DNA of 21,163 bases from IMG/VR virus record IMGVR_UViG_3300032607_000797, positions 1-21,163 of that record; one strand, 5' to 3'. The translations under genes were made by a program, and so were the position numbers. The notes beneath the pieces were generated by a model. That model was not told where the DNA came from. It saw only the letters and a list, made by a program, of their open reading frames with translations, and made no database searches. Positions within the stretch are counted from its first letter, which is position 1, and every line of letters starts with the position of its first letter. Positions 17,288-19,549 of the stretch are shown piece after piece. The stretch is from a virus.

Positions 17288-17785
17288 TCACAGCGTGCAA
17301 CCCTCGTGACCATCGCGCTTTGCAGACAAGTAAGCAGCGTGAGCCGCCTCAGCAGTCTCGAATGTGCCGAGCCTTACCTGCTTTCCGCCAATGCGGATGC
17401 GAGCCTGATACTTTCCGTAATGCATGGACACACCGAGCAGCTTGGTACCGCTACTTTTGTGAGCTTGTCGTTGGTTTTGCTGGTTTGCAATCCGCGTCAC
17501 ATCACGCAGATTGGCAAAGCGATCATTTTTGGTATTGCCGTCTTTATGGTCGACCACACCCACTGGCCATTCGCCATGCACCCAAAGCCACGCCAGACGA
17601 TTCGCCCTGTGCTTTTGCCCATTGATCTGAATTTTCAGGTAGCCGTTTTTATTGAAGGCTCCAGCAACTTGGCCGATGCGTACAGGCCCGATGTCAACCA
17701 GCCAGGTAAAGACTCCTTGTGCTGGCTCATAGTGCAACAGAGTCCTGAGAACAACAGCAGTAAGAGTGGTTTGCAATAAAGTCAT
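17288..17785 (-). CDS. HNH endonuclease with AP2 DNA-binding domain
   Basis: A 165-residue two-domain nuclease. Residues about 45-100 hold an HNH_3-type site (RANRLAWLWVHGEWP, then VDHKDGNTKNDRFANLRDV, with His80, Asn84 and Asn92). Residues 113-155 (GTKLLGVSMHYGKYQARIRI, then GTFETAEAAHAAYLSAKRD) form an AP2-like DNA-binding domain. This combination is typical of free-standing homing-type endonucleases; some HNH proteins beside terminases are also needed for cos cleavage. Sampled stretches of the gene are near 50% G+C, clearly below neighbouring genes, which points to recent acquisition. It starts 2 bases after the Z-like stop with AAAAGG as ribosome-binding site. Confidence 0.88.
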   Translation of the reverse strand: MTLLQTTLTAVVLRTLLHYEPAQGVFTWLVDIGPVRIGQVAGAFNKNGYLKIQINGQKHRANRLAWLWVHGEWPVGVVDHKDGNTKNDRFANLRDVTRIANQQNQRQAHKSSGTKLLGVSMHYGKYQARIRIGGKQVRLGTFETAEAAHAAYLSAKRDGHEGCTL

Positions 17786-17787
17786 GA

Positions 17788-18393
17788 TTACCTTTTAGCG
17801 TTGAACCGGTCAGTAAAGAACTTCGCCTCATTGACAAACAGTTCGGGAAACTTCGTCTCGATCATGGCCAGCACCTTGGTGTTGATGCGCTTGGTGTTGA
17901 ACATCCCAGCCACATCAATCGTCTGCAGCGCCTTGATGGGCAGCCGCGCCTTGCCGGTACGAACAAACACCGTGCGCCCCTTATTGCCGATAAACGCTGA
18001 TTTCAAGCCCTTCTTGCCGCCAGCCTTCTTGATCTGCACGAACAGCTGGTTCAGCGTGCCTGCCTTGCCACGCTTGCGCGCAGTCGCCATCGACACCGAG
18101 CGCTCCATGAAGTTAATCAGGTTCAGGCTGCGACCGCGCTTGCTTGGCGACTGCAGGCTGGCCTCAAGGTGCACGCGCCCACCGCCAGCCCGCGCCTTGG
18201 TGATCTGCAGCGACTCGCCCACCTTGCTGGCGCTCATGTTGAATTCGGCTCGTATCTCGCGACTCATGGCCGTCTTAGCCTGCGCCACGGTCTTGTTCAA
18301 TGCGCTGGCCAGTGCCTTGTTGGCAACGTCCTTGTTCATCGACTCAAGCAGGCGTTGCACATCGGGAAAATTGGTTTTGATGCTGATCTGCAT
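17788..18393 (-). CDS. Minor tail protein Z-like (displaced)
   Basis: A 201-residue, very basic protein that resembles the lambda gpZ family: an N-terminal helix with ALASALNKTVAQAKTAMSRE, a middle with GNKGRTVFVRTGKARLPIKA, and an ending in which ETKFPELFVNEAKFFTDRF is helical. gpZ helps connect tails to heads correctly in lambda. The gene here is upstream of the terminase genes, whereas in lambda it lies between FII and U; that place is empty in this genome because FII and U-like genes overlap. The ATG at 18393 has GGAAGG upstream. The family call is by pattern and worth confirming with a profile. Confidence 0.75.
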   Translation of the reverse strand: MQISIKTNFPDVQRLLESMNKDVANKALASALNKTVAQAKTAMSREIRAEFNMSASKVGESLQITKARAGGGRVHLEASLQSPSKRGRSLNLINFMERSVSMATARKRGKAGTLNQLFVQIKKAGGKKGLKSAFIGNKGRTVFVRTGKARLPIKALQTIDVAGMFNTKRINTKVLAMIETKFPELFVNEAKFFTDRFNAKR

Positions 18394-18410
18394 GGTTCAA
18401 GCCTTCCAGT

Positions 18411-18668
18411 TCAAGGGTTCATGTGTGACGCAGATGCAGACGCCAAGCGCTGAGCGGCTGCATCCGCATCCATCGCTTTCAGCGCCGCCAAAACAGCCGT
18501 CTTGCTTGGGTTTTCGGGCCGCAGGGCAATCGCGTACAGCATTGCCTCCTGATACGCTTTGACCGGCCGCGCCGACCGCACCAGCCGGGCACAGCAACGG
18601 GCGCACCGTGTGTTGTATCCACCCCAATGCGGCATGGATTGAGCTTTGAGGCAGTTGGTGCATGTCAA
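18411..18668 (-). CDS. Small zinc-ribbon protein, TTG start
   Basis: An 85-residue protein with four cysteine positions fitting a zinc ribbon: CTNC at residues 3-6 and CARC at about 22-25 (plus one more Cys). After that comes a helical region (KAYQEAMLYAIALRPENPSK) and an Ala-rich tail. The frame begins with TTG at 18668, overlapping the preceding stop as TTGA; there is no ATG before the first cysteine pair. An ATG at 18663 belongs to another frame that lacks the cysteine pattern's spacing. Small zinc-ribbon proteins are common between replication and packaging genes of such phages. Function unknown; DNA or RNA binding is plausible. Confidence 0.6.
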   Translation of the reverse strand: MTCTNCLKAQSMPHWGGYNTRCARCCARLVRSARPVKAYQEAMLYAIALRPENPSKTAVLAALKAMDADAAAQRLASASASHMNP

Positions 18669-19549
18669 GCCACCAGACCCATGGCCAGGCGCTGGGCCCG
18701 GCGTTCAAGCAGTTCGGGCGGCGTGCCGCTGCGAGGTGCTGCCGCCTCAGCCTTGAGCCGGAGCAGTTCAGCGTCAGCATTCGGGCTGCTCGCCACCGTC
18801 ACCCGGCCGACATCCGCCTTGCCGAGTCGGGCAGCAGGCGCAGCCATTGGCGCATCAGCCATAGCAGCAGCTGCCGCCATCTGGTTTTTCACGATGCCCA
18901 AGGCATAGGCAAAGCCCTTGCCAACCTTCACCGCAGCCGGCGCCACCGCAGCGAACATGCCCGGCGTCGCCCCTTCGCCCACCAGCACGGCAAGCCTGGC
19001 ATCCGATGGGTTCGTGTCCCCGATCCCGGCATCCCGCATTGCATTGCAAACCAACACACACACCGAGCCGTCAGGCTCACCAGGTGGTTGGTCGACCCCT
19101 GCTGTGTGTGTTTGGTTATTGGTTACTGGCTTATGGTTAGTGGCTAGGGTTACGTCTGGGTTAATTTCAGAAACCATCTGGGTTATTTCTGGGTTTCCAT
19201 AGTCGGCATATTCAGGAACCATCGCGGTTACTTTTTTAGGTCGGCCACCACGCTTTCCAACTTCCCTATTGGTTTCTGCTTTTTGCTGCATGGAGCTGAT
19301 TTCAAAGTCGCACCGGGTTTGCTTATAGAACCCAGCCTCAATCGTGAAGAACTCGCCAACCACCACGGCCAGCGCTTCCTTTTCATCTTTCGAGCGCGCA
19401 CTGATCAGCCGTGCTGCCTGGTCAACTGGAATGGCCGACTCCCGCGTGTAGTACACGTCCAGCAGGCGCATGTAGACGCCATGCTCGAGCAGGCTCAGAT
19501 GGCTGGCATCCTTCATGTAATCGCCGATGTGCCGCTTGTAGTAGTTCAT
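18665..19549 (-). CDS. DUF1376 (YdaU-like) replication-region protein
   Basis: A 294-residue protein. Its N-terminus MNYYKRHIGDYMKDASHLSL, then LEHGVYMRLLDVYY, is the DUF1376 signature, found in phage and prophage proteins at the lambda O position and thought to bind DNA for replication initiation. Residues 95-108 (REVGKRGGRPKK) are basic. Residues 110-150 form an N/T/P-rich linker, and the C-terminus (CVLVCNAMRDAGI to KGFAYALGIVKNQM) has the usual second helical domain. ATG at 19549 is chosen because the family begins with MNYY; the 10-codon extension is not conserved in type. The linker DNA is A+T-rich and repeated, see separate entry. It overlaps the zinc-ribbon gene by 4 bases. Confidence 0.85.
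   Translation of the reverse strand: MNYYKRHIGDYMKDASHLSLLEHGVYMRLLDVYYTRESAIPVDQAARLISARSKDEKEALAVVVGEFFTIEAGFYKQTRCDFEISSMQQKAETNREVGKRGGRPKKVTAMVPEYADYGNPEITQMVSEINPDVTLATNHKPVTNNQTHTAGVDQPPGEPDGSVCVLVCNAMRDAGIGDTNPSDARLAVLVGEGATPGMFAAVAPAAVKVGKGFAYALGIVKNQMAAAAAMADAPMAAPAARLGKADVGRVTVASSPNADAELLRLKAEAAAPRSGTPPELLERRAQRLAMGLVA
19111..19230. repeat. Phased GGGTT repeats in an A+T-rich stretch, candidate phage origin
   Basis: Inside the DUF1376 gene, the 90 bases from 19111 to 19200 are about 41% G+C, far below the surroundings. The plus strand shows GGTTA at 19114, 19121, 19135, 19148, 19159, 19181 and 19226. GGGTT occurs at 19147, 19158, 19180 and 19191, so spacings are 11, 22 and 11 bases, and TCTGGGTT at 19155, 19177 and 19188. 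Helically phased repeats within an initiator-type gene recall lambda, where the origin lies inside gene O. The call as an origin is inference. Confidence 0.5.

Follow-up and report, generated by a model that had tools for sequence, protein, structure and literature searches.

The repeats located in the middle of the DUF1376 gene of a viral DNA stretch of 21,163 nucleotides (the window) are likely to represent a phage replication origin that lies within the linker of its own initiator gene, as in lambda O. Origin activity is inferred here, and the same is true for binding, melting and replication by the DUF1376 origin, since no experiment was performed. What the present analyses show is a two-part repeat anatomy, conservation of the repeats at the DNA level, their place between two domains, their covariation with the DUF1376 domain, and adjoining replication genes in relatives. 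A first-pass annotation, which was made from sequence alone, had proposed a lambda-type intragenic origin at this site. This proposal is well supported on anatomy, DNA conservation and context.

The window protein meets the requirement for membership in the DUF1376 family (84.4 bits against a gathering score of 30.1), and PF07120 was the sole Pfam family found, no match to PF04492 (Phage_rep_O) being detected in this protein. The PHROG matches of the gene carry the name 'primosomal protein'. AlphaFold2 modelled most of the DUF1376 domain with pLDDT values of 91-98. A search by sequence for a solved structure of DUF1376 found none, and a Foldseek comparison of the domain with the PDB returned only weak matches (best E 0.17), many of which are winged-helix proteins. 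Across aa 111-160 the pLDDT block means were 46-57, so that the linker is predicted to be disordered between two confident domains. The earlier claim that the repeats coincide with a linker between two domains therefore held. The C-terminal domain is shared with the PHROG_1408-type initiator L006 and is exchangeable among relatives. Past the DUF1376 gene (window 17288-18668) lie a short ORF, the gene for a minor tail protein Z and an ORF of 165 aa, ahead of the terminase.

Features of the DUF1376 gene and its linker repeats in the window
Feature	Position	Strand	Evidence or detail
DUF1376 gene (294 aa), candidate initiator of replication	18665..19549	(-)	Pfam PF07120, E=7e-24
DUF1376 domain, aa 2-84, predicted winged-helix-like	19298..19546	(-)	Pfam; AlphaFold2
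Predicted disordered inter-domain linker, aa ~111-155, houses most repeats	19085..19219	(-)	AlphaFold2
C-terminal helical domain, aa 161-232, confident in AlphaFold2	18854..19069	(-)	
Helically phased segment of putative iterons	19148..19229	(-)	AACC at gene nt 321, 355, 366, 388, 399; steps 34, 11, 22, 11
Dyad copy 1, AACCGCGATGGTT within TTCAGGAACCATCGCGGTTACTT on +	19211..19233	(-)	Repeat family D2; 83% identity with copy 2
Dyad copy 2, AACCCAGATGGTT within TTCAGAAACCATCTGGGTTATTT on +	19166..19188	(-)	Repeat family D2
Heptad array, 5 tandem units	19111..19145	(-)	Sense strand AGCCACT AACCATA AGCCAGT AACCAAT AACCAAA

The first-pass annotation had counted seven GGTTA and four GGGTT copies, the latter spaced by 11, 22 and 11 bases, and these counts and positions proved to be exact. 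On the plus strand GGTTA starts at 19114, 19121, 19135, 19148, 19159, 19181 and 19226, so that 7 of its 12 occurrences on this strand over 21 kb fall here, in the densest 120-bp stretch for the motif, and GGGTT starts at 19147, 19158, 19180 and 19191. The sharp A+T-rich dip that had been described is real (GC 0.43 at 19100-19219), but it is equalled at 17740-17859 and is thus not unique. The treatment of GGTTA and GGGTT as a single set needs correction, because the GGGTT set makes up the phased element, while the GGTTA copies at 19114, 19121 and 19135 are part of the heptads. Read on the coding strand, the window linker consists of two elements, the phased AACC half-sites coming first and the 7-bp array lying downstream. 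Two of the five half-sites (19226-19229, 19192-19195, 19181-19184, 19159-19162 and 19148-19151) sit in AACC-N5-GGTT dyads inside a 23-bp repeat that occurs twice, 45 bp apart. AAACCCARRTGGTT dyads, nearly identical to window copy 2, are present in three relatives (L009, L049 and L193). The CCA triplets of the heptads, at 19141, 19134, 19127, 19120 and 19113, are in register and pass through all three codon phases. Compared to whole-gene synonymous shuffles of the window gene, p-values of 0.016 for the 5-unit CCA heptad run, 0.001 for AACCC pairs phased at 11 bp and 0.0014 for exact 6-mers at 11/22/33 bp were obtained, and permutation of the linker codons gave a p-value of 0.0002 for each of the CCA heptads, AACCC pairs and exact 6-mers. 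A 15-nt inverted repeat (19048-19062 / 19103-19117, 87% complementary, 40 nt apart) was also observed beside the heptad array.

The heptad array is a recurrent property of DUF1376 genes. Most of the genes that were retrieved by protein-level searches bear (RACCANN)n past the domain on the sense strand. A scan at the DNA level only, without any protein criterion, for (RACCANN)4 across 2.9 million viral contigs of IMG/VR returned at least 80 loci. In 70 of these 80 the array was located inside a DUF1376 gene on the sense strand, and two further loci resemble truncated copies. An independent third set comprised 79 genes picked by the DUF1376 N-terminus only. Here, arrays with a score of at least 6 were detected in 52 genes, at a median distance of 94.5 nt past the domain. 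No array of equal score was found on the antisense strand in these 79 genes, nor were arrays with a score of at least 6 found elsewhere in the loci of this set, save for loci with a second DUF1376 reading frame. Two such reading frames occur in each of L251, L253 and L257, with the heptad array in the second only. Among 106 non-redundant linkers, runs of at least three CCA triplets spaced at 7 bp were present in 80. A spacing of 6 bp gave such runs in 8 linkers, 11 bp likewise in 8 and 12 bp in 6, and each of the remaining spacings examined, among them 4, 5, 8, 9 and 10 bp, in 0-1. Under a looser count, antisense in-gene CCA runs of at least three were seen in 7 of the 106 genes, and short runs alone are therefore weak evidence. 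About a quarter of the linkers lack a 7-bp array, as does ydaU. In some DUF1376 linkers (L249, L263, L206, L229 and L027, encoding PTPTPT, TNTNTN or HNHNH) 6-bp CCA arrays replace the 7-bp ones.

Several lines of evidence show that selection on the linker acts on the DNA, and that the repeats are a conserved DNA signal in DUF1376 genes. In arrays that were defined by their peptide (N[HQYK][KEQ]P.T), Asn was encoded by AAC in 58/58 cases, Pro by CCA in 57/58 and Thr by ACC in 55/58, whereas the same genes outside the arrays use AAC at ~59%, CCA at 28% and ACC at 34%. The Asn that follows the peptide-defined array is encoded by AAT in 18/19 cases. Across the family the arrays occur in all codon phases, and their free n1n2 positions differ between units, TA and TG being missing in the codon phase where a stop would result. 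Moreover, the genes L187-L193 have the peptide SQTPDSR in place of NHKPLT, yet CCA is kept every 7 bp, and linkers with the peptide PSPISH likewise retain this spacing. The first-pass annotation had predicted that the repeats would be conserved as DNA even where linker residues vary. This prediction was met by the near-fixed codons, the occurrence in all codon phases, the L187-L193 genes and the 11-bp phasing in 106 linkers. The refuting case that it had named, a gene that keeps the linker peptide but loses the DNA repeat and its phasing, was not found among the relatives compared.

The phased element is likewise found across the family. Within the stretch that separates the domain from the array in the 106 non-redundant linkers, exact 6-mers recurred 285 times at 11 bp versus 20.8 times in synonymous shuffles (z=38.9), 227 versus 19 times at 22 bp and 77 versus 6.6 times at 23 bp, and further peaks were seen at 32-35 bp and 43-45 bp. 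The sequences of these repeats are clade-specific and include AACCCAG/AAACCCA, GCAATGC with GAACGC, ATGCCACGG, CGTGCAC and others. Genes with similar DUF1376 domains tended to share phased repeats (partial r 0.32, Mantel p-value = 0.001), whereas similarity of the C-terminal domain showed no such correlation (partial r 0.00). Consistently, mean repeat sharing was 0.27 for pairs that are alike in the N-domain and not in the C-domain, versus 0.09, the background value, for pairs alike only in the C-domain. This covariation with the N-terminal and not the C-terminal domain lends indirect support to the earlier suggestion that the repeats are iterons for the DUF1376 protein, in the absence of binding data. 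The GGTTA copies that are heptads are probably not the same binding site. We lean towards the inference that the DUF1376 domain is the reader of the phased repeats, which fits the covariation, but domain and repeats are neighbours in the gene, so that linkage may contribute in part.

Of the 58 genes located directly after DUF1376 on viral contigs, 10 match a P-like helicase loader, at most 8 a DnaB-like helicase, at most 8 a primase/helicase and at least 4 a DnaC-like loader. Annotated phages agree with this picture, a gene for a helicase, loader or primase often coming next. The DUF1376 gene of Pseudomonas phage MR13 (L061) is annotated as 'putative antirepressor' and its next gene as 'putative globin'; in psageK9, by contrast, the gene in that position carries the annotation DNA helicase loader. 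A cumulative GC-skew analysis, which had been suggested at first pass as a check, gave a mixed outcome. In AbTJ the minimum at 10.1 kb agrees with an origin in the linker at 8.8 kb, whereas in P19250A there was no such agreement, and GC skew is thus not decisive on the origin.

Based on these data, a mechanism can be proposed. The N-terminal winged-helix-like DUF1376 domain would bind one face of the helix at the phased AACCC/AACC-N5-GGTT repeats, thereby forming a nucleoprotein complex. This complex may then open the adjacent heptad array or keep it single-stranded, the array serving as a strand-specific element for unwinding and/or helicase loading. The helicase would be brought in by the C-terminal domain or by the product of the next gene (a P-like or DnaC-like loader, DnaB or a primase-helicase). 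That the heptads act in strand opening or helicase loading is an inference which we regard as about as likely as not. Against the origin reading as such stand the absence of any experiment, the lack of a helicase or loader gene beside the window gene (none was found among the genes scanned), the mixed GC skew, and the quarter or so of linkers without heptads.

Other explanations were considered. The repeats could merely follow from selection for a peptide linker that is flexible and rich in N/T/P/Q, the DNA having no role of its own. In favor of this are the location in a disordered linker and the fact that amino-acid repeats force some DNA repetition. However, neither 7 nor 11 bp is a whole number of codons, the array codons are nearly fixed even though the rest of these genes does employ synonymous codons, linkers with SQTPDSR or PSPISH keep the 7-bp CCA, and the repeats exceed synonymous shuffles. 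Peptide-driven repeats were rejected on the basis of the codon tests and the synonymous shuffles; this explanation is very unlikely, and as a full explanation it is refuted by the codon data. Replication slippage, which would make the heptads neutral microsatellites, could be invoked for the 11 of 70 arrays with identical units, and several of the few hits outside DUF1376 genes are perfect repeats. Nonetheless, 59 of the 70 arrays vary at n1n2 while CCA and its flank remain fixed, and location and strand are constant, which leaves slippage with very little credibility.

An unlikely, though less remote, possibility is that the repeats are a control site, either an operator through which the DUF1376 protein autoregulates, or a C-rich, G-poor stretch of transcript acting as a Rho (rut) or other RNA-level site. 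Phased dyads would suit any DNA-binding protein, and the AACCANN sense RNA is indeed C-rich and G-poor. On the other hand, an operator in the middle of a gene would be unusual and the neighbours are helicase and loader genes, while an RNA site leaves unexplained both the upstream 11-bp phasing and the purine-rich arrays of PHROG_1408 phages described below. An origin within the initiator gene thus remains the preferred reading.

In the open-licence literature that we searched, no description of the two-part linker DNA feature in DUF1376 genes was found, no DUF1376 paper was about an origin as judged by title or abstract, and nothing was found on phage origins with 7-bp or heptamer repeats; earlier accounts may have been missed. 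The present reading proposes a function, that of replication initiator, for the hitherto unexplained DUF1376 family. In addition, the DNA signature could serve to locate the origins of many uncultured phages by sequence alone, and it represents a protein-coding stretch whose codons are dictated by a DNA signal. It also raises the question of what reads a strand-specific 7-bp repeat that adjoins phased iterons in two initiator families unrelated to each other.

The second of these families is formed by the PHROG_1408 'replication initiation protein' of other phages, in which helically phased linker repeats are also followed by a 7-bp array. These linkers (L302-L381, e.g. L316, L320 and L328) contain 10-bp-phased TCGCGAATCC repeats and then GGATCAA/GGACCAA arrays, with z-values of 47 and 46 at periods 10 and 20, and of 55 and 30 at array periods 7 and 14. 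They differ from the DUF1376 linkers in that the phase is 10 bp instead of 11 bp and the array is purine-rich, and no homology between the PHROG_1408 N-terminal domain and DUF1376 was detectable (hhalign probability 0.1%). Some PHROG_1408 members have 5-bp GGAAG-type arrays instead of 7-bp arrays. A bolder reading would be that tailed phages share a so far undescribed two-part origin plan whatever the initiator family, in which initiator sites helically phased at 10-11 bp precede a strand-specific 7-bp array within the linker of the initiator gene; this array would be a general element for single-strand opening or helicase loading, read by a factor common to unrelated initiators. Its generality rests on PHROG_1408 only, and we are slightly inclined to doubt it.

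The ydaU gene of the E. coli Rac prophage is a DUF1376 gene followed by a gene for an ATP-binding protein, and its linker contains ATGTTCAAAC-like phased repeats at 33, 33 and 12 bp. An origin termed oriJ, which is active but normally repressed, has been described in the Rac prophage (PMC3945230). The ydaU linker differs in having another repeat sequence and no CCA heptads, and the site of oriJ relative to ydaU was not established here.

The closest comparison is with the origin in gene O of lambda and Stx phages, where the iterons lie mid-gene at a place matching that of the window repeats (the four iterons annotated in lambda O fall at nt 349-433), a strand-asymmetric tract follows downstream and the loader gene P is next. 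In gene O of lambda and Stx phages, additional iterons lengthen the protein by residues (PMC7466680). As in lambda, the repeats are placed between the two domains of the initiator gene, although this rests on repeat anatomy only, without binding data. Lambda has 18-bp iterons spaced at 20-24 bp and then an A-rich tract, whereas the DUF1376 genes show 11-bp phasing of short half-sites and dyads, with CCA heptads after them. A 7-bp CCA array was absent from lambda O when this gene was checked by eye. The lambda-type origin is further defined by an adjacent A+T-rich unwinding tract, and the heptad arrays are not strongly A+T-rich, their GC averaging 0.44 versus 0.53 for the gene and being lower than that of the gene in 70/80. 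The window gene does not have at least four 18-bp iterons at 20-24 bp spacing, and its product is not a Phage_rep_O (PF04492) initiator. Since the inferred working is lambda-like but the iteron length, spacing and initiator family differ from those that define the lambda origin, we class the putative DUF1376 origin as a variant of the lambda-type origin.
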